A DNA stretch of 64,000 bases from assembly GCF_030644205.1 (NCBI RefSeq), contig NZ_CP128647.1, positions 1,240,001 to 1,304,000 of the forward strand. The letters run 5' to 3'. Source of the DNA: Mogibacterium neglectum. Its GTDB lineage: Bacteria; Bacillota; Clostridia; Peptostreptococcales; Anaerovoracaceae. The notes beneath the pieces were generated by a model that saw only the letters and a list, made by a program, of their open reading frames with translations, was not told the origin of the DNA and did no database searches. The translations under genes were made by a program, and so were the position numbers. Positions 6,994-47,924 of the stretch are shown here, piece after piece (position 1 is the first letter of the stretch; the number at the start of each line of letters is the position of its first letter).

Positions 6994-7054
6994 TTCTTGT
7001 CTCCGTGAGTACTATTCTCTTAACTGAGAAGTGCTGATATTGTATCTGATTTCA

Positions 7055-7083
7055 ATTATAGTCTTATAAATAATTTACTACAA
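7055..7083 (-). promoter_or_regulatory. Predicted promoter of mcrBC
   Basis: On the minus strand TTGTAG (7083-7078) and TATAAT (7060-7055) are spaced by 17 bases, about 60 bases upstream of the mcrB start. Confidence 0.55.
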
Positions 7084-7326
7084 AAAGAAAGTCTATTGCT
7101 CAGAATACTTAGTTGGTATAACAGCTGTTAAATCCATTCATATTATGCCTGTAAGATCTTATACCCGTTACATCTTAAGATACGTGAAAATTCTCTAATA
7201 ACACGTACTTCCCTATAAGTACGAAAGTAGGATTTCATCTTGGCTCCTGTATTCGAGAGAAAATATTATACGATATTTACTTCTACAGCTTGTGTGTGAT
7301 AGAGTAATTTTGTCAACCACAATGGC

Positions 7327-31309: not shown

Positions 31310-32701
31310 TTAATGCACTCCCTTATTATGTTTTCTATGGCTCCAAATCGCTTCGGCAGTTGCATTCCATTGCTTAGCATATGGTTTACACTTATTTTCA
31401 AGATGTTCAGCACTTTCAGGTGAAATCATATCTGTTGAATGTGCACCTGAATCATTTACCATCTCGGAAAGTCTGCCAGGATTCTCGAGCATTGGGCAAG
31501 GCTTTAGATGATTGCTGTTAAATGGCTGATTATGGTGATATGCCATGAACAGCGGTTTCTTAAGAGCTTCCATTATAGTATCCTTGCGAATATTCGAATC
31601 AGAATAATGTATAAACACGCATGGTTCCATATCACCTGCCGAATTGATATGGAAGTAATTGCGTCCACCTGCGATGCATCCGCCAATGTACTCCCCGTCA
31701 TTTTGGAAGTCAATAGCAAACATGTTATTAGCATAATCCTTAGATCTAATGATGTGAACTTTATCCATCACATGTTTACGCTGTGACGCAGTCGGCATCA
31801 AACTTGGATCTGCATCATTACCAACAGGCATGTAATGGAAGTACCAAGCTAGTTTACACCCATGTTCTCTAAGCATCATAATGAATTCATCGTCAGTTAC
31901 ATACTTGTAGTTTACACTCGTATAACAAATAGATACTCCATATAACAAATGATGTTTCTGCAACAACTTCATTGAATCCATAACTCTCTTATACACACCT
32001 TTTCCACGGCGAGAATCTGTTGACTCTTCGGTACCCTCAATGCTAATTGCAAAGGAAATATTTCCTACACGTTGAACTTCTTTACAAAACTTTTCATCAA
32101 TAAGAGTTCCGTTCGTAAAAATATGGAATTCACTATCATTGAATTCTTCCGCAAGTTTTATAATATCGTCCTTGCGTACAAGTGGCTCCCCACCCGTGAG
32201 AATGTACATATATGTCCCAATATCATTACCTTGCTTAATAATACTAGCCATTTCATCATAACTAAGGTTATTCTTATGACCATATTCGGCTGCCCAGCAT
32301 CCTGTGCACTTAAGGTTACACGCCGATGTTGGATCAAACAATATTGCCCACGGAATATTGCAATTCTCTTCACGCTGCAATTTGCATCTCTTTTTATTGC
32401 CCTTGTATGCCGCATTGAATCCGACGTTAGAAACAAAGTGTTTGATTACATTCTCATCTACGTCGTTTACCATATCGGTTGCAAATGAAACCCAGCTTGA
32501 GTTGGGATCTGCAAACTCACGCCTGATATTCTCGATAGCTTTCTTACCACTATTTTCCTGTTCGCTTTTAGGCATCATATATTTATCTATAATACCGACG
32601 ATATCAAGCATACCTTCTCTAGGATTCTTCTTAATCTTTTTGAATCCTATATCAACAGCTTTATTAAATGCAGCTAATGTTGCTTTCTCTCTAAGTGTCA
32701 T
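31310..32701 (-). CDS. Radical SAM protein of unknown function with extra C-terminal cysteines
   Basis: 463 residues. A helical N-terminal ~110 residues precede the radical SAM core with CNLKCTGC (Cys128, 132, 135) binding the [4Fe-4S]-SAM cluster, then YILTGGEPLVR. A C-terminal SPASM-like region has Cys in GGCIAGGRNYFHINSAGDMEPC and in KPCPML, suggesting an auxiliary cluster. Enzymes of this type modify peptides or small molecules, but the neighbours (rsmE upstream, carB downstream) give no clue and no substrate peptide gene was seen. Product and reaction unknown. Confidence 0.88.
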   Translation of the reverse strand: MTLREKATLAAFNKAVDIGFKKIKKNPREGMLDIVGIIDKYMMPKSEQENSGKKAIENIRREFADPNSSWVSFATDMVNDVDENVIKHFVSNVGFNAAYKGNKKRCKLQREENCNIPWAILFDPTSACNLKCTGCWAAEYGHKNNLSYDEMASIIKQGNDIGTYMYILTGGEPLVRKDDIIKLAEEFNDSEFHIFTNGTLIDEKFCKEVQRVGNISFAISIEGTEESTDSRRGKGVYKRVMDSMKLLQKHHLLYGVSICYTSVNYKYVTDDEFIMMLREHGCKLAWYFHYMPVGNDADPSLMPTASQRKHVMDKVHIIRSKDYANNMFAIDFQNDGEYIGGCIAGGRNYFHINSAGDMEPCVFIHYSDSNIRKDTIMEALKKPLFMAYHHNQPFNSNHLKPCPMLENPGRLSEMVNDSGAHSTDMISPESAEHLENKCKPYAKQWNATAEAIWSHRKHNKGVH

Positions 32702-33742: not shown

Positions 33743-35668
33743 TTACCAGCCACCGCCTCCGCCGCCACCAGAGCCGCCACCGACCGATCCGCCGCCGCCA
33801 GAGCTGAGACCGCCGCTGACATCTGCGTACAATGCCGATGATACTCTAGAAAACGCACTAGATTGAACATGATGAATCATAATATCCATATTTATAAGGT
33901 CGTACATGTCTCCGCCTAACGCACTGTATCCAATATGTCCAGCTAGAGTCTTAGGTTCAAACTTCTTCGCCCAGGTGTCGGTAAGCCCAAATACATAGGC
34001 ATACGGAAGCACGTCGTAGAAATACGCTGGATTTTCCTCAACAAGGGCATTTATTCTATCCACCTCTGCTGTAGCGATAAATTCTTTGAAGCCGATAATC
34101 TCACCATAAAGCTTGGCACTATCCTTAGTTCTCTTGAGGAATCCTAGTAGAATCAATGGTACAGCCAATGTGTATACAGCTATTGCAGCTAGAGAATAAA
34201 TCGTCATCTCACCGCCCGCCATCTTGTACAAAAACAATAACATAAACGATGATATCGCCAGATAGATAATTCCCCAGAACGCAAAAGATGTAACACTTCT
34301 TAAACCGCTTCTCGTCCTATGAAAATGATACTCTCTACACATCCTCTTAACAGGCAATCTCCAAAATGCATCAAGAATCACCGAACCACCATATACGAAT
34401 ATCAAAATTCGCCAGCCGGGTAGGTAAAACTCTCTATACATAGAAAGTGCGATTAGCATACCTCCTATTATGCAGCTAATGATAGCTGCAATCTCTTCAT
34501 TTTTCTGCGATTTCTTAGAGAATATAGATTTGTTGTCAGTGTACTCTTCAACGATCACCTTTCTAATCAGTTCACATTCTTTGCCTATGCGTTTGCTCGC
34601 TTCCTCTAGGCTCACTACCTTGCCAAGCGTGCCCTTCTTCGTGCTTCCAAATATAGTTTTGTAAAAAGTAACGGTAATCGGTGGTTCGTCATATACGTCG
34701 GGAATCCGGAGGCTCTCGAATTGATATTTCCCCTTCTTGTATTCCTCAATCGAGATATAGCCCTTGGATGCCAAGTAAAAGAACATCGATGTGATATCCC
34801 TCTTATTTACTGCTTCGTCGACCAGATATCCGATTTCTCCAGGCGGAACACCTTTTGGCGGCTTGAACGTAACAGGCGCAACAATCGGGTGCTCTTTTTC
34901 GTTCAAAACCCTAAGCACGATAAGTATAATGACGCCGAGAATTGCTACTATTACGGTCGCATAGTTCACCCAGTACTTGCTAGGCGCTTTGTACCAGTAA
35001 CCTTTTGGAGTATCTACGAGCAATGTTGCGCCATTATTCGCAGGCAAATTCTGAACGTTGTATTCGATTATATTTCTCTTCTTGTTGTAATTCCACGTCC
35101 CGTACATATTGTAGGTGCTTTTATGTGGCCCACTATATCCTTTCATGCCGCTATAAGGAAAATGCTGTGGCAGACTCACAGAAACTGAAGCCGACTTGAT
35201 ATCTGTTGCCCATTCCGACGGAAGCACATCCACATATATATCGTTCGGATTATTCTTGCGCTCGTAATTAGCGAGCGTATAGATGATGGTGTACTCTTTA
35301 ATACCTGTAACAGTCTTCTTTTTATCACCAATTTTAATCTGCATATGCTCAGCTTTGTACAGATTCTTAATCCTATATTTATCCCCATCTACGGATACGT
35401 CTTTGATCTTGTATCCCTTGCCGAAAGGAATGTTTCTAACTATACCGTGCTTTGGGTCGGTGAAATTCACCTTAATCTTCTCTACGACTACGTATGAATA
35501 GTCATTTCTAACATCCACAGTCACATTGTAACTAAGGGTAGAATATCCAACGCCCGTGTCGACATCTCCTGAACTGAAATATCTTGTTAGGCCTGAAATA
35601 AGCCATATTGTAGCTAGTAAACCGATAGATACTATGATTGCTATGCGATCATTTCGTTTTTTGTCCAT
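33743..35668 (-). CDS. DUF2207-family predicted membrane protein
   Basis: 641 residues. A hydrophobic N-terminal segment (about 10-30) is followed by a ~200-residue outside domain, membrane helices near 235-257, 395-412, 420-440, 460-485 and 490-515, and a C-terminal tail of almost pure glycine and serine (SGGGGSVGGGSG and on), typical of this family. Function of the family is not established; a cell-surface role is assumed. Single gene on the minus strand. Confidence 0.88.
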   Translation of the reverse strand: MDKKRNDRIAIIVSIGLLATIWLISGLTRYFSSGDVDTGVGYSTLSYNVTVDVRNDYSYVVVEKIKVNFTDPKHGIVRNIPFGKGYKIKDVSVDGDKYRIKNLYKAEHMQIKIGDKKKTVTGIKEYTIIYTLANYERKNNPNDIYVDVLPSEWATDIKSASVSVSLPQHFPYSGMKGYSGPHKSTYNMYGTWNYNKKRNIIEYNVQNLPANNGATLLVDTPKGYWYKAPSKYWVNYATVIVAILGVIILIVLRVLNEKEHPIVAPVTFKPPKGVPPGEIGYLVDEAVNKRDITSMFFYLASKGYISIEEYKKGKYQFESLRIPDVYDEPPITVTFYKTIFGSTKKGTLGKVVSLEEASKRIGKECELIRKVIVEEYTDNKSIFSKKSQKNEEIAAIISCIIGGMLIALSMYREFYLPGWRILIFVYGGSVILDAFWRLPVKRMCREYHFHRTRSGLRSVTSFAFWGIIYLAISSFMLLFLYKMAGGEMTIYSLAAIAVYTLAVPLILLGFLKRTKDSAKLYGEIIGFKEFIATAEVDRINALVEENPAYFYDVLPYAYVFGLTDTWAKKFEPKTLAGHIGYSALGGDMYDLINMDIMIHHVQSSAFSRVSSALYADVSGGLSSGGGGSVGGGSGGGGGGGW

Positions 35669-36240: not shown

Positions 36241-37245
36241 CTAGCAAATCCTCGGCAGCAGCTCTCCGCTTGGAGGTGGTAGCAGCGTTTCAGTGCCTAT
36301 TTCCGTGGTCATCACAACGTGACCAGGCATCTCTTTAGTCACCTCGCCTATTACCACCGCACCCTCTGTATGCTCGGAGCTGTGCAGTGCCGCGAGTACA
36401 GCGTCAGCGGATTTTGCAGGGACGAACATAACCAGTCTGCCTTCGCAAGCGAGATAAAGTGGCTCTAGCCCGAGCATGCCCGTGACACCAGCGACTTCAG
36501 GATTCACAGGAATTGACTCAGTATCGAGCTTGATTCCGACATCACTCTGGTCAGCAATCTCATAGAGTACAGTCCCAACTCCGCCGCGCGTCGCATCCCT
36601 TATAACGTGGATGTCTGGATCAGCTTCAAGTGCAGCATTTACAGCATTCCAGAGTGGCGCACAATCACTCGTCACATTCGCCTCCATGCCGAATCTGTCC
36701 CTCTCGAGCAGAATCGTACAGCCGTGACGGCCAACGTCTCCAGTCACGATGATCTTGTCACCAGGTTCAGCATTTGCACCAGCTGGATTAACGCCTTCCA
36801 GTATCTCGCCTACGCCAGTAGTCGTGATAAATACTCCATCCACCTGCCCTTTGCCAGCAACCTTGGTATCGCCAGATACGATTGAAACACCTACCTCATG
36901 AGCCGTCTCAGCCATCGCCTTAGCGATGCGGTCCAGCTTCACAACTGGGAAGCCTTCCTCTATTACAAACGCACAAGAGATATAGAGTGGCTTTGCGCCC
37001 ATGCACGCGAGGTCATTTACCGTGCCGCATATCGAGAGCTTTCCGATGTTACCGCCAGGGAATTCTGCAGGCGATACGATAAACCCGTCCGTGGACATCG
37101 CCATCCTCCCAGCTGGAGGTGGCACCACGGCTGCATCGTCCGCTGTTAGGTATTTGTTGTCGAAATATTTCTTGAAAATCCCACCGATCAGGTCATTCGT
37201 CTGCTTTCCACCCGCACCGTGCGCGAGGGTTATTGTTTGTTCCAT
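36241..37245 (-). CDS. hypE: HypE, carbamoyl dehydratase for cyanide ligand synthesis
   Basis: AIRS-family ATPase that dehydrates the C-terminal S-carboxamide to a thiocyanate and passes CN to HypC-HypD. 334 residues from the ATG at 37245 (GGAGG six bases upstream; it overlaps hypD by 16 bases). It has LAHGAGGKQTN at the start, the ATP motif STDGFIVSP and GDTKVAGKGQ. The essential C-terminal Cys is intact (tail GELLPRIC). Last gene of the long nitrogenase-like/hyp operon. No hydrogenase gene follows; a tRNA does. Confidence 0.97.
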   Translation of the reverse strand: MEQTITLAHGAGGKQTNDLIGGIFKKYFDNKYLTADDAAVVPPPAGRMAMSTDGFIVSPAEFPGGNIGKLSICGTVNDLACMGAKPLYISCAFVIEEGFPVVKLDRIAKAMAETAHEVGVSIVSGDTKVAGKGQVDGVFITTTGVGEILEGVNPAGANAEPGDKIIVTGDVGRHGCTILLERDRFGMEANVTSDCAPLWNAVNAALEADPDIHVIRDATRGGVGTVLYEIADQSDVGIKLDTESIPVNPEVAGVTGMLGLEPLYLACEGRLVMFVPAKSADAVLAALHSSEHTEGAVVIGEVTKEMPGHVVMTTEIGTETLLPPPSGELLPRIC

Positions 37246-38300
37246 ATGTCGCCTCCGTATTTGTAAAATGCCGAACATGCGCCTTCACCAGAAACCATGC
37301 ATGCACCTATCGGATGTTCCGGTGTACAGCCCTTACCGAACACCTTGCAGTCGTAAGGCTTGCATTTGCCGAGAAGCACATCTCCGCATCTACATGCCGG
37401 GTTTGGCTTACCTTCTATATCCGGAAGGTCAAACTTGAACCTCGCATCGTAATCACGATACTTTGGCTTTAGTTCGACACCCGATTTCTCTATTACACCG
37501 AGTCCACGCCATTCTGCATCGCAAGGCTCCATCACTGTCTCGACAAGCTTTCTAGCCGCAGGGCTACCTTCTTCAGTTACTACTGCTGGGTAGCAATTTA
37601 CTGCAAAAGGCTTTTTCTCCGCCACCTTCTTGATGATCACCGCAAGTGCCGTCAGTATCTCGGATCCCGAGAAACCGGCGACTACTCCGGATATTCCGTG
37701 TTCATCGCGGAGTTTGTAGTATTCCTCCATACCAGTCATCGTGCTCACGTGACCTGGATACAGGAAAGCATCTACACTGCCCTTGAGCGCAAGATAAGCG
37801 TTATACATCGTCTTGTTAGCAGTCAATATCGAGAAATTCTTGATGCCCTGTGCCTTCGCTTCACGCACCGCCATAACGCTTCCCGGTGTTGTCGTTTCAA
37901 ATCCGACCGCCAGAAATACGACCTGCTCGTCCGGATGCTCCTTGGCATACTCGAGCGAGTCGAGCGGTGAGTATACAACATTGACCTTCGCACCCTTGCT
38001 GCGAGCTCCAGCAAGGCTCATCTCCGTTCCCGGAACTCTGATTAAGTCTCCAAAAGTCGTGATAGTTGCCTGCTTATCCAGTGCAAGCATCACCGCTTCA
38101 TCGATGTAAGAAACCGGTGTTACGCAGACAGGACATCCTGGACCCGAGATAAGTTCGATGTTATCAGGCAGAAGTCTCCTTATTCCAAGTCTAAAAATCT
38201 CATGCGTATGAGTTCCACAGACTTCCATAATTCGCAGCTTCGGGCCGTCGTAGGAAGTGACAATGTCGCGAGCTTTTTTTGTACTCTCGTTAATTGTCAT
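37230..38300 (-). CDS. hypD: HypD, Fe(CN)2CO assembly scaffold
   Basis: Iron-sulfur protein on which, with HypC, the iron receives two cyanides and CO. 356 residues. Conserved motifs MEVCGTHTHE (25-34), GPGCPVC near 53-59, GFETTTP and the [4Fe-4S] site with CRCGDVLLGKCKPYDC, GCTPEH and GACMVSGEGAC are all present, so it looks functional. Overlaps hypC by 11 bases and hypE by 16, indicating tight translational coupling. Confidence 0.98.
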   Translation of the reverse strand: MTINESTKKARDIVTSYDGPKLRIMEVCGTHTHEIFRLGIRRLLPDNIELISGPGCPVCVTPVSYIDEAVMLALDKQATITTFGDLIRVPGTEMSLAGARSKGAKVNVVYSPLDSLEYAKEHPDEQVVFLAVGFETTTPGSVMAVREAKAQGIKNFSILTANKTMYNAYLALKGSVDAFLYPGHVSTMTGMEEYYKLRDEHGISGVVAGFSGSEILTALAVIIKKVAEKKPFAVNCYPAVVTEEGSPAARKLVETVMEPCDAEWRGLGVIEKSGVELKPKYRDYDARFKFDLPDIEGKPNPACRCGDVLLGKCKPYDCKVFGKGCTPEHPIGACMVSGEGACSAFYKYGGDIWNKQ

Positions 38301-38505
38301 TTAGCTCCTCCATGACCTTATCTGCCTCTTCCTCTTCATCTGCTGCAACCCTTGCAATAGCAAGACCTGCGTGCACCATCACATAATCTCCAGGAGCGAG
38401 GTCTGAAATCAGCTCCGCAGAAACCTTTCTCTTAACGCCGCCAGCATCGATGACAGCCATATTATTCTCTATATTAGCAACCTTTGCTCTCAATCCCACG
38501 CACAT
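38290..38505 (-). CDS. hypC: HypC/HupF hydrogenase maturation chaperone
   Basis: Small OB-fold protein that holds the Fe(CN)2CO unit with HypD and normally delivers it to the hydrogenase large subunit. 71 residues with the essential N-terminal Cys2 (MCVGL) and HAGLAI near the end of the core, followed by an acidic tail (DEEEEAD). Family members mostly begin MC(L/I)(A/G)(I/V)P; the proline is missing here. Start has GGAGGTG upstream. With no hydrogenase nearby, the recipient protein is an open question. Confidence 0.95.
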   Translation of the reverse strand: MCVGLRAKVANIENNMAVIDAGGVKRKVSAELISDLAPGDYVMVHAGLAIARVAADEEEEADKVMEELNDN

Positions 38506-38570
38506 ATGTGCACCTCCGTCATTTTCTAATCTCTATGTATTTTATACCCATGTACAGTAATATTGATGTA

Positions 38571-40997
38571 CTATTTATTGTTCTTCGCTTCAAGCGCTGC
38601 TATTCCTGCAGCCGCCTGGCCGATTGCTATGCCGCCGTCGTTTGTCGGTACGACTCCGTGCTTCAGCACTTTGAAGCCTTCTCGTTCAAGTCCATCATCC
38701 ACTAGCTTTAGAAGTAGTAGGTTTTGGAATACTCCGCCTGATAGGGCAACAACGTTCACTTCACACCTTGTACGCTGGTAGCAGCACGCGATTACGATCA
38801 TGTCTGCCAGCGCTTTATGGAAGAAGTATGCCAGCTGGTCAGTATCTTGATCTGCCAGACTCCTTGCAGCTAGTTCCATGAGCAAGGTGTCTGTGCACAG
38901 TTCGAACTGCTCTTCGTCGATATTCATCAGCCTGCCCTCGTAAGGCGCTAGGCTTATTCCTTGTGCTTCGGCGCGTTCAGCTGCAAACTGGAGCGCCATC
39001 GAGGCCTCGCCTTCGAAGGTGCTGGCTGACTTTATGCCGAGCACTGCGCTTACTGCGTCAAAGAGGCGGCCTGCGCTTGTTGACTTCACTGTATTTATAT
39101 TATTTCCGAGCATGAAGTCGATGCTCTGCCTGCCCTTCTCGTCTCCGAGTCCGAGTGTCTCTCCTATGCGGTTGGCCGCCTCGCTTCCGAGCGCTGTGCT
39201 AATCATGGAGTATGCGATTCGCCATCCCTCCCTAGAGGCGATATCTCCGCCAGCATGTATAAACGGCGCTATACTGCCGACACGCTCGTAGCCTTTCTCA
39301 TCGCCAAGCAAGAATTCGCCGCCCCAGATAGTCCCATCTGGACCGTATCCAGTTCCGTCAAAAGTCACTCCCAGAGCTGTTCCATCGTATTCGTTCTCTG
39401 CCATGCACGATACCATGTGTGCATGATGATGCTGCACTTCCATAACTGGAACACCTTCTCTCTCTGCAATCACCCTAGCCATCTCACTCGTGTTATAGCC
39501 TGGGTGCATATCTCCCACTATTATATCTGGATGAATCTCTAGTAGCCTTTCCATACGAGTTGTCGCTGCTTCAAGTGCTCTCACACTTCTCATATCCGCC
39601 ATATCGCCTATGTATGGTGATGGATAAAAAAGCCCCTTATCTCCTAGGCAAAATGCATTCTTTAACTCTCCACCTATTCCGAGCACCGCATGGGGGCTTT
39701 CACTCTTCGCTACTATTGGAAGCGGAGAATACCCTCTAGACCTTCTGATCATATAAGGCTTGCTTCTGTAAAATGCCATAACCGTATCATCCGCTCTTAT
39801 CCGTATGTCCCTAGAGTTAGAAAGTATGATATCGCACATCGGCGATAGATACTTAAGCGCTTCCTCATCGTTCATGCATATCGGAGCTCCAGATGGATTT
39901 CCGCTAGTCATAACCAGCACATCAGATATTGGCTCATCATCAGGATAATCGAAGAGGAGCATATGAACTGGTGTATATGGCAGCATCACCCCTAAATTTG
40001 GATTGTTAGGTGCTACGGATGCTGCGATTCTTAATCTATGCCGTATCTGGCTGTTGGTCTTAATTTCTTCCTGTATATTGGAATCAAGCTCTGCCGACTC
40101 AGCTGAATCGTGACGTCTAGGAATCAGTATTATCGGCTTCTGCGGGCCGGTAAGCAGAGGCTCCATCTCTGGCTCCAGCCTGCATTCGCGCCCGACCACT
40201 TCGAGATCCCGCATCATCACTGCAAACGGCTTCATCGGGCGCGCCTTCAGCTGTCTGAGGCGCTGGACCGCTGCTTCGTTCGCGGCGTCGCAGCAGAGGT
40301 GGAAACCACCGATCCCCTTGATGGCGGCTATGCCGCCATTCCTGATTACAGCCCTAGTTTCAAGAAGCGCCGCCGCGCCATATACACCCTCGTGGCGCCC
40401 AGTATCAGATGCTTCGCCCACGAGGGTGTAGAGCTCCGGCCCGCAGTCGTTACAGCATACAGGCTGAGCATGGTAGCGTCTCGAATCCATATCGGTATAT
40501 TCATCACTGCAGGCCTCGCACATCGGAAAACCAGCCATGCTGGTTTTCTCTCGGTCGTATGGCATCGAGTCGAGAATAGTTAAACGCGGACCGCACTGAG
40601 TACAGTTTATAAACGGATGGAGATACCTCCTGTTATTCTTATCAAACAGCTCCCTTGCGCAATCCGGGCAAGTTGCTATGTCAGGCGATACGAATATCTG
40701 CCCATCCTCATGCTTGCTATCTACAATCTCGAAACCTGATGGAGCTTCTATATCCAGAGGATAATCCATAACCTTAACCTTGACGATTGCAGACCGCTCT
40801 GGCGCTTCTGCTTCTATGGCATGTACAAAATCGCCTATTACGGACTCATCTGCTCTTGCGATTATCTCAACGTAAGAGCCCTTGTTACAGACACTTCCAG
40901 ATATGCCATATCTATCCGCAAGTCTGCTCACAAAGGGTCTAAAGCCAACGCCCTGAACTATTCCATAAATCCTAATTAATCTACATACCAATTGCAA
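38571..40997 (-). CDS. hypF: HypF carbamoyltransferase
   Basis: Uses carbamoyl phosphate and ATP to carbamoylate HypE, the source of cyanide. 808 residues, full length: acylphosphatase domain (GIVQGVGFRPFVSRLADR, about 1-90), a double zinc region (CPDCARELF, CTQCGPRL, CEACSDEY, CNDCGPEL; about 108-185), a YrdC-like domain (KGIGGFHLCCDA, about 200-400) and a Kae1-like domain (VQHHHAHMVSC, LSGGVFQN; about 420-800). It begins 14 bases after the nifK-like gene stop, placing it in that operon. Confidence 0.97.
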   Translation of the reverse strand: MQLVCRLIRIYGIVQGVGFRPFVSRLADRYGISGSVCNKGSYVEIIARADESVIGDFVHAIEAEAPERSAIVKVKVMDYPLDIEAPSGFEIVDSKHEDGQIFVSPDIATCPDCARELFDKNNRRYLHPFINCTQCGPRLTILDSMPYDREKTSMAGFPMCEACSDEYTDMDSRRYHAQPVCCNDCGPELYTLVGEASDTGRHEGVYGAAALLETRAVIRNGGIAAIKGIGGFHLCCDAANEAAVQRLRQLKARPMKPFAVMMRDLEVVGRECRLEPEMEPLLTGPQKPIILIPRRHDSAESAELDSNIQEEIKTNSQIRHRLRIAASVAPNNPNLGVMLPYTPVHMLLFDYPDDEPISDVLVMTSGNPSGAPICMNDEEALKYLSPMCDIILSNSRDIRIRADDTVMAFYRSKPYMIRRSRGYSPLPIVAKSESPHAVLGIGGELKNAFCLGDKGLFYPSPYIGDMADMRSVRALEAATTRMERLLEIHPDIIVGDMHPGYNTSEMARVIAEREGVPVMEVQHHHAHMVSCMAENEYDGTALGVTFDGTGYGPDGTIWGGEFLLGDEKGYERVGSIAPFIHAGGDIASREGWRIAYSMISTALGSEAANRIGETLGLGDEKGRQSIDFMLGNNINTVKSTSAGRLFDAVSAVLGIKSASTFEGEASMALQFAAERAEAQGISLAPYEGRLMNIDEEQFELCTDTLLMELAARSLADQDTDQLAYFFHKALADMIVIACCYQRTRCEVNVVALSGGVFQNLLLLKLVDDGLEREGFKVLKHGVVPTNDGGIAIGQAAAGIAALEAKNNK

Positions 40998-41011
40998 TCA
41001 CCAATATCTAT

Positions 41012-42244
41012 CTATTTCACTACATCTCCGGCTTTCTGCCAGTATTCTTCATCTGAGCTCGATGAGTACAGAGAAGCCGAGATTGCGAAATGAGGAAGAC
41101 TGAGGAAAGTACCCTTCCATCCAGGAAGCGCCCTCTTGATTAGCGGATCACCCATCACCATATCGTACCCTTCTGCATCTACGAGCTTCATGAGCTCATC
41201 CTCTTCATTTAACTTAGCATCATGCTCCTGACGAACCTCTTTGCTCATCATGAACCAGCTCGCAACATCTATGCGCTCTAGTGGCTTATCCTCGGAAGCA
41301 CCTATAAGCACGTCTCTAAGCGAATTTGCAAAAACCTGCTGATGCACTATCAGCACCTTCCGAGGCTCGTGCCCCATGACCTTGCGAGAGAACTCATCCG
41401 CACAATCCTGCGGCAGAGGATAACATATCTCATATGGTACGCCATACTTGTCCGATAACCATCTCGCGGGCTTTACACCGCCAGGAGATACGACGATATT
41501 TCTATCCACATGTGCAGCAGCAGCCACATCTTCTAGCGTATCATTCATGCCATAGATAACTGGGTTATCCACGCCCTGCTCGCTAAGTGCAGTCACCATA
41601 TCTTCGTAGTCGCCGCTTCCAGGGGTGTCGAGCGGCGTAAAGCCTAGTACTCCAACTCTTTCGGAAGCATTACTCTTATCAATCTTACCTAAATCACCTA
41701 GCTTGCCCAGTTTTCCTAGCTTTTCTAGATCTTCCAAGCTAATTGCTTTTTGCTCAAGACTGCCATTTGCGATAAATCTCGCTCCTGAGCCGCCCTCTTC
41801 ATGCAAGTAGTTCTTGAGTATCTGTAGAAACGCCCTGCTAACACCTTCGTCATACATGTCGATTCCATTAGTTTCAACAGGTACAACTGGCACCTCGTAG
41901 TCAGTCTCCATTAGGCGCTTTAGCGCTCTATAGTCAGTAGCGATAACGGCTGGTACAGGTGTCCCGATTAGGCCGACGAATTTAGCGTCTATGTCTCCGA
42001 GTGCTTCCTTTGTCTTCTGAATGAGAAGCTTGTCACGGCCGAGAATCGCATCTAGATCACGAAGAGCTGCGCTAAATATCGCGCTCTTTTTCTTATCCCA
42101 ACGCGGCTCATCGTATCCGCAGATATTTCCAACGCAGCCACCAGCATCCATGATTATCAGCATACCGCCGTAGTGAAACAGCACAGAGACCGCACCAGAC
42201 TGGTCTGGCGTAAATGGCGATAGATACTTTCTAAGCCCTTTCAT
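41012..42244 (-). CDS. Nitrogenase component 1-like protein, NifK/BchB-type subunit (set 1)
   Basis: 410 residues, distant homologue of nitrogenase beta subunits. Only two cysteines sit in the cluster region, in DAGGCVGNICGYDEPRW (Cys37, Cys42); the position that usually holds a third cluster Cys reads VGLIGTPVP. The DEPRW motif is shared with the second NifK-like protein at 46620, so the two are paralogues. A low-complexity insert KLGKLGKLGDLGKIDK (175-190) lies between the two lobes. It overlaps the nifD-like gene by 14 bases and is followed 14 bases later by hypF. Shorter than NifK (about 510) and without its N-terminal extension. Substrate unknown. Confidence 0.82.
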   Translation of the reverse strand: MKGLRKYLSPFTPDQSGAVSVLFHYGGMLIIMDAGGCVGNICGYDEPRWDKKKSAIFSAALRDLDAILGRDKLLIQKTKEALGDIDAKFVGLIGTPVPAVIATDYRALKRLMETDYEVPVVPVETNGIDMYDEGVSRAFLQILKNYLHEEGGSGARFIANGSLEQKAISLEDLEKLGKLGKLGDLGKIDKSNASERVGVLGFTPLDTPGSGDYEDMVTALSEQGVDNPVIYGMNDTLEDVAAAAHVDRNIVVSPGGVKPARWLSDKYGVPYEICYPLPQDCADEFSRKVMGHEPRKVLIVHQQVFANSLRDVLIGASEDKPLERIDVASWFMMSKEVRQEHDAKLNEEDELMKLVDAEGYDMVMGDPLIKRALPGWKGTFLSLPHFAISASLYSSSSDEEYWQKAGDVVK

Positions 42245-43520
42245 CAGCGAGCCTCCTCTCTATAGCCTCTACAAAGTGTACAAGTCCCTTGTATCCAAAC
42301 GGCTGGATTTCGTTATTCCAGTGCACATTTATCGACTCTGGATAGTAGAACTGTGCATCTATACCGATTGAAATATCAACCTTTTCCGAACCATCGTAGT
42401 TCATCATTGTCGGTGACATAGTCGAGTACACCTTGAGGTCTGGGTTGTAACTAGCTAGTTCTCTGATAAAAGGAAAGTCATCTTCGCTTATATTCGCAAA
42501 CGCCGACTTAACGCGTAGTCCCAGCTTCTCGAGCGCTAGCGCCATCTCAATTGAGTTTCCATTTACAACCTGTCCTATTGCAAATGTCTTTCCTTCACAC
42601 AGCTGCTGAAGTCTTAGGCACGCATCGCTAGCCTCACAGAAGTATTCCGAATCATCAATTTCTACTCCGAGAGCCGAAGCGAACAACGCATATTGACGCT
42701 TGATTCTATCTATTTCATATACTCTAGTCAGCTCCACGTAAGGGATTCCGAGCTTTGACTCAAGTGTGAATGCTGCCTTTCTAGCCTCTGGATGAAGTAT
42801 GATATTGAAATCTGCTCCGCCCATATCCATGTATTCTTCGAGGGTTTCTTTTCTCCCTACCTCGTGTATGGTCTTGATTCCCATCTGACCGAGGATGTCA
42901 TAAAGGTCTGAATCGTCCTCTAGATGTGTAAAATTACCGAGCAAATTAACGGTCCCGCCTGTCGGCTTTCTCTTCTCAAGCAGCGAGTAAATCGCTTCTC
43001 TTACAGCTACCATCGGTGAGTTCTTGCCCTCGCGCATAAGCGCATACATATATGTAGGAACGACGTGAATTCCCGTGCGCTCCTCTGCCTTTCTACAGAC
43101 ACGCTCTAGGTCAGTTCCGAGAAGCGCATCGACGCATGTGATGCAAATAACCACAACCTTAGGCTTCACTTCACAGACTTCATAAATCTCCTCGATAGCC
43201 TGCGGTATATCGGATAGATGTCTGCCTGTGACGAGGTCATTTTCACTCATCTGAAGGAAAAACATCCTCTCGCTATATCCGCCTTCGTCCGCCAAAATCG
43301 TGGTATTACGGCCACAGCAAGCTGGCGCAACCACGAGCATTACCGATTCCGGTATGACTACTCCTGCTCTCTTAACGCCAAATCCCTGTGCACCTGGTGA
43401 GTTGTACATCAAGGTCGCCGGTGAGCTATACACGAGATGCTCGTTGCTCACTAGCTCGGTCGGAATACTGCCAGCCTCAGCGAGCGCTCCTATTGTCGTG
43501 AAATAAGTGTCTCTCGCCAT
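42231..43520 (-). CDS. Nitrogenase component 1-like protein, NifD/BchN-type subunit (set 1)
   Basis: 429 residues of the oxidoreductase/nitrogenase component 1 family. Cluster cysteines: APACCGRNT (Cys68, 69) and VICITCVDALLGTDL (Cys126, 129). The Cys and His that hold FeMo-cofactor in NifD are not seen, so a P-cluster-like or [4Fe-4S] centre without FeMo-co is expected, as in dark-operative protochlorophyllide reductase or CfbD. It shares one base with the stop of the Fe-protein gene and overlaps the NifK-like gene, giving a strict H-D-K order. Confidence 0.82.
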   Translation of the reverse strand: MARDTYFTTIGALAEAGSIPTELVSNEHLVYSSPATLMYNSPGAQGFGVKRAGVVIPESVMLVVAPACCGRNTTILADEGGYSERMFFLQMSENDLVTGRHLSDIPQAIEEIYEVCEVKPKVVVICITCVDALLGTDLERVCRKAEERTGIHVVPTYMYALMREGKNSPMVAVREAIYSLLEKRKPTGGTVNLLGNFTHLEDDSDLYDILGQMGIKTIHEVGRKETLEEYMDMGGADFNIILHPEARKAAFTLESKLGIPYVELTRVYEIDRIKRQYALFASALGVEIDDSEYFCEASDACLRLQQLCEGKTFAIGQVVNGNSIEMALALEKLGLRVKSAFANISEDDFPFIRELASYNPDLKVYSTMSPTMMNYDGSEKVDISIGIDAQFYYPESINVHWNNEIQPFGYKGLVHFVEAIERRLADERA

Positions 43521-44272
43521 TACGAATTCTCCTTGATCAGGTAGTCTGCCAGTGCAAAGAACCTCTTTGCGATATCCGACTCAGGATTACCCTCGATTAC
43601 GGTCTTACCCTGATCCTCCCAGTCGATGATTTCCTGACTGCGAGGGATCTCTCCTACGATTGGTATTCCAGCATCATCTGCAAATGCCTGCACCTTCTCC
43701 GTCTCATTCTCGACGTTGCGATGATTGAGGACCACTCCCTTTACCTTGGCATAACCGCGGTCCGCAAAATTATCTACAGCCGTCTTAATATTATTTGCCG
43801 CATAGAGAGCCATCTTTTCACCCGAAGTTACGATGAGTATATCCTCTGCAAAGCCTTCTCTGATAGGCGCAGCAAACCCTCCACAGACTACGTCCCCGAG
43901 CACGTCATAAAGGACTACATCAGGATTGAATCTGCCAAAAACATCTAGATCATCTATTAGATTAAAAGTTGAGATGATACCTCTACCCGCACATCCGATG
44001 CCCGGTGTAGGTCCCCCAGTCTCGATACATTCAACTCCTCCAAATCCAGTTTTAACCATCTCGTCAATAGTCGGTTCATCGTCGTTATCCCTCATGAAGT
44101 TCATAACCGGAATCAGCGGATTGCCACCGAGAAGGTTGATCGTCGAATCAGCCTTTGGATCACATCCAATCTGAACCACCTTATATCCCTTAACTGCAAA
44201 GGCTGCTGCGAGATTCGCAGTCACTGTCGATTTTCCGATACCACCTTTACCATATATTGCTACCTTAATCAT
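43520..44272 (-). CDS. NifH-like Fe protein (set 1)
   Basis: ATP-dependent electron donor with a bridging [4Fe-4S] cluster. 250 residues: P-loop GKGGIGKS (8-15), [10 protein letters not shown] (35-44), cluster Cys94 in [13 protein letters not shown] and Cys130 in [14 protein letters not shown]. Arg97, the ADP-ribosylation site in NifH, is present. Shorter than NifH (about 275-295), as in nitrogenase-like families. First gene of the H-D-K-hypFCDE operon; the start has AGGGGG upstream, directly after the leader terminator, and a TTGCGT/TATAAT promoter drives it. Confidence 0.93.
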
Positions 44273-44286
44273 TTATCCCCCTACAC

Positions 44287-44357
44287 AAAAAGACTTCAAA
44301 CCACACAGGTAGAAGTCTCCGAAAACAAATTCATACCACTCGGGACACCTTGTGGTT
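44287..44357 (-). promoter_or_regulatory. Structured 5' leader with alternative terminator and antiterminator (candidate riboswitch)
   Basis: Read on the minus strand. Terminator: AGACTTC (44318-44312) with GAAGTCT (44297-44291) and a T5 run, ending 14 bases before the Fe-protein start. Antiterminator: the 18-base arm at 44357-44340 pairs with 44322-44299 in four blocks (AACCACA/TGTGGTT, AGGT/ACCT, GTC/GAC, CCGA/TCGG), which uses up the first terminator arm. The two folds exclude each other. No known riboswitch class was recognised. Confidence 0.65.
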
Positions 44358-44379
44358 GGTCTTCATTTAATTAATTAAA

Positions 44380-44408
44380 ATTATACTATCGTAACAGATT
44401 GTACGCAA
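44380..44408 (-). promoter_or_regulatory. Promoter of the nitrogenase-like set 1/hyp operon
   Basis: TTGCGT (44408-44403), 17 bases, TATAAT (44385-44380). Start expected near 44373, giving a ~100-base leader. Confidence 0.7.
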
Positions 44409-44432
44409 TAAAAGGTATTTTAATCACAATCG

Positions 44433-44461
44433 TTTACATTTTTTTGAGTGACTGATAAAAT
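44433..44461 (+). promoter_or_regulatory. Promoter of the nitrogenase-like set 2 operon
   Basis: TTTACA (44433-44438), 17 bases, TAAAAT (44456-44461). The ~80-base leader contains a small hairpin TTATACCT/AGGTGTAA and no T run. Confidence 0.6.
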
Positions 44462-44546
44462 ATTTTAAATACATTTTCTCTCTTTATACCTAACAAAAAG
44501 GTGTAAATTGGTGAGGTGAAATTTATTTTTTAGGAAGTATTTCTCA

Positions 44547-45296
44547 ATGAAAAGAATTGCAATATACGGTAAAGGCGGAATTGGAAAATCCACTACCGTC
44601 TCTAATATGTCTGCAGCACTCGCTGGAAAAGGCTATACGGTCATGCAGATTGGTTGCGATCCAAAGGCTGATTCCACGATTAGTCTTCGTCAAGGTATGG
44701 AGCTCACTCCAGTTCTCGATACTTACAGGGATAAAATCAAGGACATTCAGCTTGAAGATATGTATACCATCGGCTATAACGGTGTTATCTGCGTGGAAGC
44801 TGGCGGTCCAACTCCTGGCATTGGCTGCGCTGGACGAGGCGTTGCTAAGGCGCTGGATCTGCTCAAGCAAAAGAATTTCGAAGAAGTGCTCCATCCCGAT
44901 GTCGTCTTCTACGATGTGCTCGGAGACGTAGTATGTGGCGGTTTCTCCATGCCATTAAGAAAAAACTATGCTGACAACGTATACGTGATTTCATCCGGGG
45001 AACAGATGGCGATATATGCGGCGATGAATCTCGGTCTAGCGATGGAGAATTTTAAACGCCGAGGTCACAACGGGCTATCTGGAATAATTGCTAACAAGCG
45101 CAATGTTAATGGTGAAGACGAGAAGCTTCAGACCCTTAGCGAAGACCTCGAATGTCCGATAGTCGGAACTATCGAGCACAGCATGGTGGTAAAAAGAGCG
45201 TCTGACGATGCTCTCACAGTTACCGAAGCTTTTCCGGATGACCCGATGGTTGACGTATATATGAAGATAGCGATGGAGATTATAAACAGGGACTAA
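44547..45296 (+). CDS. NifH-like Fe protein (set 2)
   Basis: 249 residues, closely parallel to the set 1 Fe protein but clearly diverged: P-loop GKGGIGKS (8-15), [10 protein letters not shown] (35-44), Cys94 in [13 protein letters not shown] and Cys130 in [20 protein letters not shown] lies eight bases upstream of the ATG. Divergently transcribed from set 1 across a 274-base region. One base separates its stop from the next start. Presumed to reduce the component 1-like pair encoded next; ATP- and cluster-dependence follow from the family. Confidence 0.93.
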   Translation: MKRIAIYGKGGIGKSTTVSNMSAALAGKGYTVMQIGCDPKADSTISLRQGMELTPVLDTYRDKIKDIQLEDMYTIGYNGVICVEAGGPTPGIGCAGRGVAKALDLLKQKNFEEVLHPDVVFYDVLGDVVCGGFSMPLRKNYADNVYVISSGEQMAIYAAMNLGLAMENFKRRGHNGLSGIIANKRNVNGEDEKLQTLSEDLECPIVGTIEHSMVVKRASDDALTVTEAFPDDPMVDVYMKIAMEIINRD

Positions 45297-45297
45297 T

Positions 45298-46623
45298 ATG
45301 CTGATTGATTTACACAAACCCGATATTAATAAAGCGAAGGTGAAGCTTGGGGACCTCGATACCCTTGCTCCTTTTCCGCGCAAACTTGAATACTCATGTC
45401 CTTCTCGCGGTGGCTGGACTATCGCGCATACACCGATGATTATTCCTGGCTCGCACATGATATACATCGGAGCGTCAGCCTGTCTGCGCGGCGTAGTTCT
45501 CTCAGCTGCCGAGTATGAGGGACTTGATAGATTTTCGATGGTGCTCATTGAGGAGAAGGATATTTTGAGTGGTAACATGGAAGAACTTTTTATCGAGGGT
45601 GTTACCGACATCCTGAATAAACTGGATTATAAACCTACGTGTGTACTCCCTTTTACAGGCTGCATTCACTACTTCCTTGCCACGGATATCGAATATATAT
45701 ATGACGAGCTTTCGGCTCGCTTTCCAGACATCGACTTCATCTCTTCGCAGATGACGCCGACCATGAAGATAAATGACCACACACCTGAAGAGGATATGTG
45801 CCGCTCGATGTACCTATGCATCGAGGAACAGCCTCTTAATGATAAGGTCGTTAATTTCATCGGCGATAGTTTTCCGATTGATAAGTCTGGCGATCATATG
45901 AAGCTACTACATGATAACGGTTTTCGCACCCACGACCTCGCTTCAATCAATGATTACGATGAGTACAAGGCCATGGGAGAGAGTTTTCTCAATATCTACT
46001 CCCTTCCAGTTGCAAAGTGGTCAACTGAGTGCCTTGAGGAGAGACTCGGTCAAAAGAGCCTGTATATGCCGTACACTTACGACTATGATGAGATTGACCG
46101 TGATATGAGTGCGCTTTCTCAGGTTATTGGAGCTCCTACTCCTGATTTTGCATCACTTCGGGCAGAAGCTGATGAAGCCCTAGGAGATGCACTTTCTGTA
46201 ATCGGAGATGCACAGATTGCTATAGATTTCATGAGCACACCGCGTTTCTTGAGCCTTGCAAAACTCCTGCTCTCACGCGGTTTTAATGTGACAGAAATAT
46301 ATGGCGATGCTCTAACACCAGATAGCAAGCCAGACCTTGAGTGGTTAAAGCAGAATTATCCAGATATTCCGCTAATTGCTACTCAGGATTTTCGTGCTCG
46401 TTTCTATCCAAGAGATGAAGCTACAGATGGCAAGCTGCTCGCAATAGGTCAGAAGGCTGCGTATTTTACAGGTACTAACCACTTTGTAAATCTAATAGCC
46501 AATAACGGCTGGTATGGATATGACGCCATTAAAAAGCTCGCAGCAGAAATGATCGATGCGTTTAACAACGAAAAAGACACTAAGTCCATAATTCAGGTTA
46601 AGGCTTGGGGGTGCTCGGCATGA
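45298..46623 (+). CDS. Nitrogenase component 1-like protein, NifD-type subunit (set 2)
   Basis: 441 residues. Cysteines near the expected cluster are Cys34 (EYSCPSRGGW), Cys62 (IGASACLRGVVLSAAE) and Cys115/Cys122 (CVLPFTGCIHYFLATD). This three-position pattern is closer to nitrogenase alpha subunits than the set 1 protein. No FeMo-co Cys/His pair was found. The C terminus ends in KAWGCSA. The stop overlaps the next start in ATGA. The GRxT-type N-terminal layout differs from set 1, so the two D-like proteins are not recent duplicates. Confidence 0.82.
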   Translation: MLIDLHKPDINKAKVKLGDLDTLAPFPRKLEYSCPSRGGWTIAHTPMIIPGSHMIYIGASACLRGVVLSAAEYEGLDRFSMVLIEEKDILSGNMEELFIEGVTDILNKLDYKPTCVLPFTGCIHYFLATDIEYIYDELSARFPDIDFISSQMTPTMKINDHTPEEDMCRSMYLCIEEQPLNDKVVNFIGDSFPIDKSGDHMKLLHDNGFRTHDLASINDYDEYKAMGESFLNIYSLPVAKWSTECLEERLGQKSLYMPYTYDYDEIDRDMSALSQVIGAPTPDFASLRAEADEALGDALSVIGDAQIAIDFMSTPRFLSLAKLLLSRGFNVTEIYGDALTPDSKPDLEWLKQNYPDIPLIATQDFRARFYPRDEATDGKLLAIGQKAAYFTGTNHFVNLIANNGWYGYDAIKKLAAEMIDAFNNEKDTKSIIQVKAWGCSA

Positions 46624-47924
46624 AACAAGTAGCAAGAGTTTTATCCACCTATTCAGCTGACCTATTCGGCATCTGCTCCGTACTCTATGAGTTGGGCGGT
46701 CTCGTTGTAATGCACGATGCATCCGGCTGTAATTCAACATACAACACACACGATGAGCCGCGTTGGTATGATATAGAGAGCATGATTTACATATCTGGAC
46801 TCATTGAAAATGACGTAATTCTCGGAAACGACGAGAAGCTCATAGGCGACGTAATTGAGGCGGCAGATGAAACTAATCCTAAATTCATCGCTATCTCCGC
46901 TGCACTGATTCCACTCTTTATGAGCACTGACATGAAGGGAATAGCCCGCATCATCGAAAAACGCACTGGAATACCGACATTTGGATTTACGACTAATGCG
47001 ATGGATACTTATGTGCTAGGCGGCAATATGGTCTACCGTGAATTTCTAGATAAATTCTGCCCTGCCCTTGATAGCAGCCAAAACACAGCTGACTCGTCCT
47101 CCATATCTGTAAATCTCCTCGGCGTAACTCCACTCGACTTCTCGATAGTCGGAAACGTTGAGGCTCTAAAGGAGTATTTTAAAGACCGCGGCATCGAGGT
47201 CAATTGCTGCATGACGATGGGCTGCACTCTTTCTGAAATGGCAAAGGCATACAAAGCTGATGTCAATGTTATCTGCTCATCTATGGCACTTGACGGTGCG
47301 AGAATACTTCATGATAAGTACGGAACCCCTGCAGTTCTGGGACTGCCTATGGGAAAGTCTGCTTGCCATGAACTTGAAAAGCTTATAAGAGAATCTGCCG
47401 TTGATGGTAAATCGAGAGCGCTTGGTTCATCAGGCGAGCTAAGCAGTATTCCTGCGCTCGAGCATCCGAAATCTAGCTATGCACTTAGAGATAGAGCCAA
47501 GGGTGGCACCTGGATTATCGGAGAAGCGATTAATGCAGCTGGTATTCGCTACACGCTGGAGCATGACCTCAAGCTAAGTGATGTTCACATACTCTGCCCT
47601 ACTCAAGTAGATGCTCATATGCTTAGAGATGGCGATGTTATGGTGCGCGACGAAGCTGACATAGAGAAGGTGCTAAAGGATGCAAAATGCGTAATTGCAG
47701 ATCCTATCTATATACGAATTCTGACGAGAAATGAAAGTGGTAATTTACCGCACTTTATAAATATTCCTCATGAAGCTTATTCTGGCAGAATGTACAGGAG
47801 TCATATCCCGACCTTCATCGGAGCAGGCTTCACAGATTGGCTGACTTCTAAGGTCAATGCTGATCAGGATTCCATCGGTATCAACGACATAATGCGGATA
47901 AATGTGCCATACAAAAAGGGATAA
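46620..47924 (+). CDS. Nitrogenase component 1-like protein, NifK-type subunit (set 2)
   Basis: 434 residues from the ATG at 46620, overlapping the previous stop by 4 bases, with GGGGG upstream. It shares with the set 1 NifK-like protein the start of the fold and the motif HDASGCNSTYNTHDEPRW, but has only one cysteine there (Cys37); the second cysteine of set 1 is Tyr/Asn here. ISAALIPLFMSTD occupies the usual third-Cys site. So the cluster is either asymmetrically ligated or completed by the D-like partner. Last intact gene of this operon; a decayed lipoprotein gene follows. Confidence 0.82.
   Translation: MKQVARVLSTYSADLFGICSVLYELGGLVVMHDASGCNSTYNTHDEPRWYDIESMIYISGLIENDVILGNDEKLIGDVIEAADETNPKFIAISAALIPLFMSTDMKGIARIIEKRTGIPTFGFTTNAMDTYVLGGNMVYREFLDKFCPALDSSQNTADSSSISVNLLGVTPLDFSIVGNVEALKEYFKDRGIEVNCCMTMGCTLSEMAKAYKADVNVICSSMALDGARILHDKYGTPAVLGLPMGKSACHELEKLIRESAVDGKSRALGSSGELSSIPALEHPKSSYALRDRAKGGTWIIGEAINAAGIRYTLEHDLKLSDVHILCPTQVDAHMLRDGDVMVRDEADIEKVLKDAKCVIADPIYIRILTRNESGNLPHFINIPHEAYSGRMYRSHIPTFIGAGFTDWLTSKVNADQDSIGINDIMRINVPYKKG

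Follow-up and report, generated by a model that had tools for sequence, protein, structure and literature searches.

Ten genes of Mogibacterium neglectum, at positions 36241 to 47924 of a 64,000-nucleotide stretch of its genome (hereafter the window, meaning the whole of that stretch), very probably constitute a HydG-replacing branch of [FeFe]-hydrogenase H-cluster biosynthesis, a reading strongly supported by comparative genomics. They comprise a nitrogenase-like set of three genes (trio A: the Fe protein HA and the subunits DA and KA), the maturation genes hypF, hypC, hypD and hypE, and a second nitrogenase-like set (trio B: HB, DB and KB). Comparisons between genomes show that trio A and HypFCDE, almost always accompanied by trio B in the same genome, apparently take the place of HydG where HydA and HydF are retained, as well as HydE where it was examined. 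The genes are the following.

43520-44272, minus strand: HA, Fe protein (NifH/CfbC-like ATPase) of trio A, 250 amino acids (aa), Pfam Fer4_NifH
42231-43520, minus strand: DA, NifD/NifE-like subunit of trio A, 429 aa, Pfam Oxidored_nitro
41012-42244, minus strand: KA, NifK-like subunit of trio A, 410 aa, Pfam Oxidored_nitro
38571-40997, minus strand: hypF, carbamoyltransferase, 808 aa, TTG start, TIGR00143 697 bits (cut-off 466)
38290-38505, minus strand: hypC, Fe(CN)/CO chaperone, 71 aa, NCBIfam 60 bits (cut-off 48)
37230-38300, minus strand: hypD, iron scaffold, 356 aa, NCBIfam 402 bits (cut-off 192.8)
36241-37278, minus strand: hypE, cyanide-forming dehydratase with C-terminal Cys, 345 aa, NCBIfam 417 bits (cut-off 251.6)
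44547-45296, plus strand: HB, Fe protein of trio B (open reading frame list, NCBIfam, Pfam)
45298-46623, plus strand: DB, NifD-like subunit of trio B (NCBIfam, Pfam)
46605-47924, plus strand: KB, NifK/NifE-like subunit of trio B (NCBIfam, Pfam)

The minus-strand genes follow one another in the order HA, DA, KA, hypF, hypC, hypD, hypE, and neighbours overlap or are separated by gaps of 14 and 65 bases. This order and spacing, described in the original prediction from the sequence of the region, were confirmed from the open reading frames. The nitrogenase-like trio reported there is real, but the second, divergent set on the plus strand (44547-47924), which starts 274 bases from the start of HA, had been overlooked. 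The genome measures 1.747 Mb and is 99.26% complete; in the named scan, Mogibacterium pumilum comes closest, with a DA that is 94% identical.

Three CO and two CN ligands are required on the two irons of the H-cluster, versus one CO and two CN on the single iron of the [NiFe] site. HydG supplies an Fe(CO)2(CN)Cys unit to HydE. According to the available part of PMC3105041, the CO and CN ligands of the H-cluster are considered to come from HydG. We searched 353 genomes of the class to which M. neglectum belongs, all at least 95% complete, with a DA profile, a DB profile, HydG and HydF. Strong DB matches (452-708 bits) were found in 19 genomes, including all 13 with a strong DA match (591-777 bits). 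HydF was present in 19 of 19 trio-B genomes and HydG in none of them, and the same held for the trio-A genomes (13 of 13 and 0 of 13), whereas 208 of the 215 HydF genomes without DB carried HydG. The anticorrelation with HydG has a Fisher p of 1.6e-22 for DB and 1.4e-14 for DA. Because the genomes are related, the test was redone within families. DB genomes occur in nine families, eight of which include HydF genomes lacking DB as well; HydG is present in 70 of these 73 genomes, and the product of the within-family probabilities is 5.7e-13. The absence of HydG along with the presence of DB across families implies several independent replacements, as a mobile module would make.

It might be argued that in these species HydE and HydF need no other partner and draw on free CO and CN in the cell, the operon being unrelated and the anticorrelation a lineage effect. 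Free diatomics are suggested in the available part of PMC9431212, a study discussed below, which cites about 1% activation in vitro without HydG; in the class sample, both HydG and trio B are missing from seven HydF genomes. Such an explanation would, however, have to accommodate the anticorrelation within families and the operons shared with HydE and HydF, and we regard it as very improbable.

A second set consisted of 80 hand-picked genomes: 48 with the operon, namely the 7 relatives and the genomes behind 41 of the remaining 77 loci of the contig scan described below (chiefly isolates or contigs of greater length), and 32 relatives at the family or order level that lack it. HydG (TIGR03955) exceeded its cut-off in 2 of the 48 versus 17 of the 32, HydF in 44 versus 19, and the HydA domain PF02906 was found in all 48 versus 28. 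Of the operon-less genomes, two (G019 and G070) have HydF and no HydG; in each of them, trio B forms a run with a HydE-like gene. In the genome of M. neglectum itself, HydE scores 545 bits (cut-off 254.6) and HydF 531 bits (cut-off 325.6), PF02906 has two matches, and HydA aligns over its full length with the solved HydA1 (7q4v, 711 bits). The best match there to the HydG model was rejected: it is ThiH (502 bits on the ThiH model), adjacent to thiG- and thiF-like genes, neighbours that were named by eye.

A contig scan with the DA alignment returned 503 related stretches, of which the best 80 were analysed, so that the counts below apply to this subgroup of DA. A hyp gene (F, D or E) is present in 72 of them. 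Seven of the eight hyp-less contigs stop in or just past DA or KA; on the remaining one, the 4-kb L171, DA is followed by an H and a DB gene. The full set HA, DA, KA, hypF, hypD, hypE was found in 62 of 80 loci, counting six D-K fusions as KA, and trio B (DB or KB) was seen in 60. Carriers include Anaerobutyricum hallii, Coprococcus comes, Blautia, Roseburia faecis, Eubacterium ramulus, Acetitomaculum ruminis, Megasphaera, Clostridium ljungdahlii and C. carboxidivorans. A metagenome-assembled genome labelled Treponema (Spirochaetota) also holds the whole run (L100, DA 59% identical), by inter-phylum transfer or as a misbinned contig.

Clustering of the neighbouring genes revealed three further families, a 91-aa TM1266-type regulator, HydF and HydE, whose representatives pass the NCBIfam cut-offs. 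The regulator is present in 44 of 80 loci, HydE and HydF in 14 each, and at least one of the three in 53; among loci of 17 kb or more, this last figure is 39 of 49. Several arrangements interleave the two groups of genes. L138 and L154 read HA-DA-HydE-HydF-KA-hypF, and L137 is like them up to KA, in which its contig ends. HydE lies between DA and KA in L173. The order in L134 is regulator-H-DB-KB-HA-DA-KA-hypF-C-D-E-HydE, and in L234 (genome G183) a single strand carries HA-DA-KA-hypF-C-D-E-regulator-DB-KB-HydF.

The original prediction had proposed that the nitrogenase-like complex carries or builds a cofactor with Hyp-derived ligands, for a new enzyme system. In such a case complex A would serve its own enzyme with a new Fe(CN)/CO cofactor, and the tie to [FeFe] hydrogenase would be indirect. 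Two full H-D-K sets, each with its own Fe protein, seem excessive for the supply of ligands, and the trio is the sole client in the window, both of which favour this idea. The evidence nevertheless points to the H-cluster, given the neighbouring HydE, HydF and TM1266 genes and the near-constant absence of HydG, so that we consider a separate cofactor improbable.

Two variants of the system can be distinguished. Type I combines trio A, HypFCDE and trio B. Type II lacks a strong DA and accounts for 6 of the 19 trio-B genomes (G070, G249, G308, G368, G407 and G459); G019, outside the class sample, also belongs to it. Its trio B runs with genes for a substrate-binding protein (SBP) and an importer of the iron/heme/cobalamin class (PF01497; the NCBIfam matches are below cut-off). 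L219 holds HydE-HB-DB-KB-SBP-permease-ATPase-HydF-regulator in one run, with HB at 6485-7264, and L220 reads permease-ATPase-HydE-HB-DB-KB-SBP-HydF. A Hyp-free trio B in a run with the binding protein or the importer is seen in L219, L220, L221, L222, L223, L086 and L087, several of them also with HydE and HydF. A HypD search, which covered G019 and G070 only, found no match in either, and no hyp gene lies within the stretches fetched for the other five type II genomes. Type II is the plainest tie of a nitrogenase-like trio to H-cluster assembly. Since it lacks trio A and has an importer, it would fit the uptake of what type I makes.

The question arises as to whether trio B alone does the job of HydG, making CO and CN or the whole synthon, with trio A and HypFCDE as an add-on for cyanide or cofactor repair in type I. 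Trio B is found in all 19 of the HydG-less trio genomes and trio A in 13, and the compact operon unites HydE, trio B and HydF without Hyp. In contrast, trio A and Hyp are kept in the same run as HydE or HydF in L138, L154 and L173, and they appear dedicated, with a HypD clade of their own (see below). This division of roles is possible, if rather unlikely.

The claim of the original prediction that the hyp genes occur without a hydrogenase holds for the [NiFe] type: the whole genome has no match to PF00374, the [NiFe] large subunit, or to PF00346, in searches that were positive in 5 and 11 of 14 control genomes, respectively. It fails for the [FeFe] type, as the two PF02906 matches attest. Among 99 relatives, a sample that includes M. 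neglectum, HypD is present in 33. Seven of these (G000, G001, G002, G003, G024, G035 and G059) have a HypD of the window type (63-100% identity), and all seven have a KA-like gene beside hyp and no PF00374 match; the operon of G059 is split over two contigs, and completeness is 75% for G002 and 83% for G059. PF00374 is matched in 25 of the 26 other HypD genomes, the exception (G056) being 73% complete. The co-occurrence of hypFCDE with an H-D-K set in genomes without a [NiFe] large subunit, which the original prediction had anticipated, is thus seen in relatives as well. The opposite picture, a hyp-less hydrogenase operon elsewhere in the genome and no conserved linkage of hyp with the trio, was not what we found, there being no PF00374 match and a hyp gene in 72 of 80 DA loci.

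In a tree with 23 HypD of relatives, 22 of them from genomes with a PF00374 match, the 66 HypD encoded beside trio A form a clade of their own (support 100/100). These results support the view that the hyp genes are dedicated partners of the nitrogenase-like genes. They could instead be relics of a lost [NiFe] hydrogenase that came by chance to lie behind a nitrogenase-like operon, and by score the four Hyp proteins are indeed ordinary family members. The order is constant in many species, however, the catalytic residues are retained and HypD has its own clade, which makes such an origin extremely improbable.

That all four Hyp proteins keep their key residues, as first stated from the window sequence, was borne out by alignments. 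HypD retains the CGTH, GPGCPVC and C-terminal cysteine stretches of solved HypD, HypE the final PRIC of solved HypE, and HypF the domains of solved HypF; Cys2 and His45 of HypC are invariant in an 11-row alignment. HypC starts with MCVG, versus MC(I/L/V)A in hydrogenase-linked proteins, with Gly4 in 6 of 6 trio-linked rows and Ala4 in 5 of 5 others. In the nitrogenase-like subunits, Cys 68, 69, 126, 129 and 142 of DA (20 of 20 rows) and Cys 37 and 42 of KA (19 of 19) are invariant, as are, in both variants, Cys 62, 122 and the near-C-terminal 439 of DB (24 of 24) and Cys 42 of KB (25 of 25). With these cysteines, each complex could hold an interface Fe-S cluster. Beyond residue 142, no Cys of DA is conserved in 80% of rows. 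AlphaFold models of DA (pLDDT 83; nitrogenase component-1 fold) and DB (85) have structural scores that are tied across the nitrogenase-like superfamily. In 6 of 80 loci (L099, L101, L121, L143, L150 and L168), a single long protein combines DA and KA, which supports a D-K complex. DB Cys 439, in a protein of 441 residues, is reminiscent of the C-terminal carrier Cys of HypE. The KA of Mogibacterium has an insert of variable length at about residues 150-195, with LGKLGKLGDLGK-like repeats in the window, that is absent from other rows.

How could these proteins share the work? Starting from carbamoyl phosphate, HypF and HypE build a thiocyanate on the last Cys of HypE, and HypCD carry Fe(CN)2CO; nitrogenases and Fe proteins are able to reduce CO2 to CO. 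We tentatively propose, at somewhat less than even odds, the following division of labour among HypFCDE, trio A, trio B and the importer. As in [NiFe] maturation, HypF and HypE would convert carbamoyl phosphate into cyanide, with the iron bound by HypC and HypD. Trio A may be an ATP-driven low-potential reductase acting on the HypCD-bound iron, most likely making or loading extra CO. Trio B, common to both variants, would make or pass on the iron-CO-CN synthon used by HydE, and HydF would complete H-cluster assembly in the usual way. In type II, the ABC importer beside trio B may bring in a starting iron complex. More speculatively, and with a lower probability, this would amount to a third Fe-CO-CN route, in which iron receives cyanide from HypFCDE, CO ligands are produced there from CO2 by a nitrogenase-like reductase, and a second complex, with its near-C-terminal Cys as carrier, delivers an Fe(CO)2(CN)-type unit to HydE, type II importing a ready-made iron-cyanide/CO complex. 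The alternative role given in the original prediction, delivery of electrons for Fe-CN-CO assembly, comes close to the one proposed for trio A, but for a different hydrogenase, [FeFe] and not [NiFe].

Several observations weigh against a replacement of HydG by these genes. HydG is found alongside the operon in 2 of the 48 genomes, Clostridium drakei and C. thailandense, and no HydF exceeds the cut-off in 4 of the 48, among them G002, which is 75% complete, and G129, in which HydF is in two fragments. Of the 234 HydF genomes in the class sample, seven, each at least 95% complete, have neither HydG nor trio B (G261, G316, G348, G351, G385, G405 and G440), owing to assembly gaps or to another route. 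HydE and HydF lie distant from the operon in M. neglectum. The HydE tree has no lineage special to HydG-less species, whose HydE are mixed among those of HydG species; this fits delivery of the same substrate. The compact variant lacks trio A and, as its loci indicate, Hyp, so that Hyp is not required wherever trio B replaces HydG. The iron built by HypFCDE has two cyanides and the HydG product one, and a conversion step must therefore be assumed. Finally, HydG candidates are named in the available part of PMC9431212, one in C. autoethanogenum and divergent ones in the others, and one row of a table there, its label cut off, appears to list a [NiFe] hydrogenase in these acetogens; our PF00374 search covered the 99 relatives, not the 41 genomes reached through loci.

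The proposed pathway has likenesses to several known systems. It shares with HydE-HydF-HydG maturation the client HydA, the same HydE and HydF and a TM1266-type regulator, but HydG, a radical-SAM tyrosine lyase, is absent from 46 of 48 operon genomes and 19 of 19 trio-B genomes, with nitrogenase-like and Hyp proteins in its place. As in the HypCDEF pathway, which makes Fe(CN)2CO for [NiFe] hydrogenases, all four proteins exceed their cut-offs and have the key cysteines; they differ in the lack of a [NiFe] large subunit in the seven genomes with window-type HypD, in their own HypD clade and in the MCVG start of HypC.

Both trios are below every NCBIfam equivalog cut-off. HA scores 303 bits with the CfbC model (cut-off 402) and 302 with nifH (cut-off 394), the CfbC model giving 303 and 292 bits for the two Fe proteins, the CfbD model gives DA 28 bits (cut-off 268), and the NifD/NifE scores of the window subunits are all far under cut-off. 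The Fe protein is nearest to the CfbC model, and a component-1 fold with few invariant interface cysteines recalls DPOR (BchLNB); unlike CfbCD, DPOR and other reductases, however, the run holds no tetrapyrrole genes that we could see, and its partners are hydrogenase maturation genes. NifEN is likewise a component-1 paralogue for cofactor building, is the top PDB hit by sequence for the DA profile (66 bits) and fills the first four Foldseek rows for DB, although structural scores are tied across the superfamily; here, each trio has its own Fe protein and the presumed product is the [2Fe] unit of the H-cluster. Nitrogenases (NifHDK, Vnf, Anf) differ in that DA scores under cut-off and lacks a conserved Cys in its C-terminal half, where we take the cofactor Cys ligand of the nitrogenase D subunit to sit. 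MarHDK, the methylthio-alkane reductase, is also a nitrogenase-like H-D-K system, and its structures 9d9u/9fmg are among the weak profile matches (22 bits for DA, 29 for DB), but the fold is common to the superfamily, and neighbours and distribution point here to hydrogenase maturation.

Weaker DA-like proteins (225-257 bits) in four class-sample genomes belong to other nitrogenase-like systems, and one of these genomes, G063, has no HypD match. Other nitrogenase-like H-D-K sets, whose D and K share about 26-36% identity with those of trio A, are found at loci L081-L085 (G086, G085, G074 and G063), and no HypD match was obtained in these genomes. The next genes past hypE in the window encode a DUF2207 membrane protein (33743-35668) and a radical SAM/SPASM-like protein (31310-32701) below every NCBIfam equivalog cut-off.

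The available part of PMC9431212 (2022), on eight acetogenic Clostridium genomes, reports that hydG was not found by known motifs in five of them despite HydE, HydF and [FeFe] hydrogenases, and that hypCDEF occur without hypAB in five of the eight. It cites an active [FeFe] hydrogenase purified from C. autoethanogenum, offers a divergent HydG or free diatomics as explanation, and contains the word 'nitrogenase' once. The presence of HydG in C. drakei is common to that study and ours. In that part of the paper, the missing hydG and the orphan hypCDEF of acetogens are left unexplained, and our literature searches listed no paper joining these facts with the nitrogenase-like genes.

Many gut and gas-fermenting bacteria thus seem, on genomic grounds, to make the Fe-CN-CO core of [FeFe] hydrogenase without HydG, via Hyp and nitrogenase-like proteins. 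If Anaerobutyricum, Blautia, Roseburia, Coprococcus, Megasphaera and the Clostridium ljungdahlii group use this other route, the puzzle in industrial acetogens, as it stands in the available part of PMC9431212, would be explained. If true, the pathway would provide hydrogenase engineering with maturation genes that need no tyrosine, link the cofactor worlds of [NiFe] hydrogenase, [FeFe] hydrogenase and nitrogenase, and assign a function to two nitrogenase-like families found in gut bacteria.

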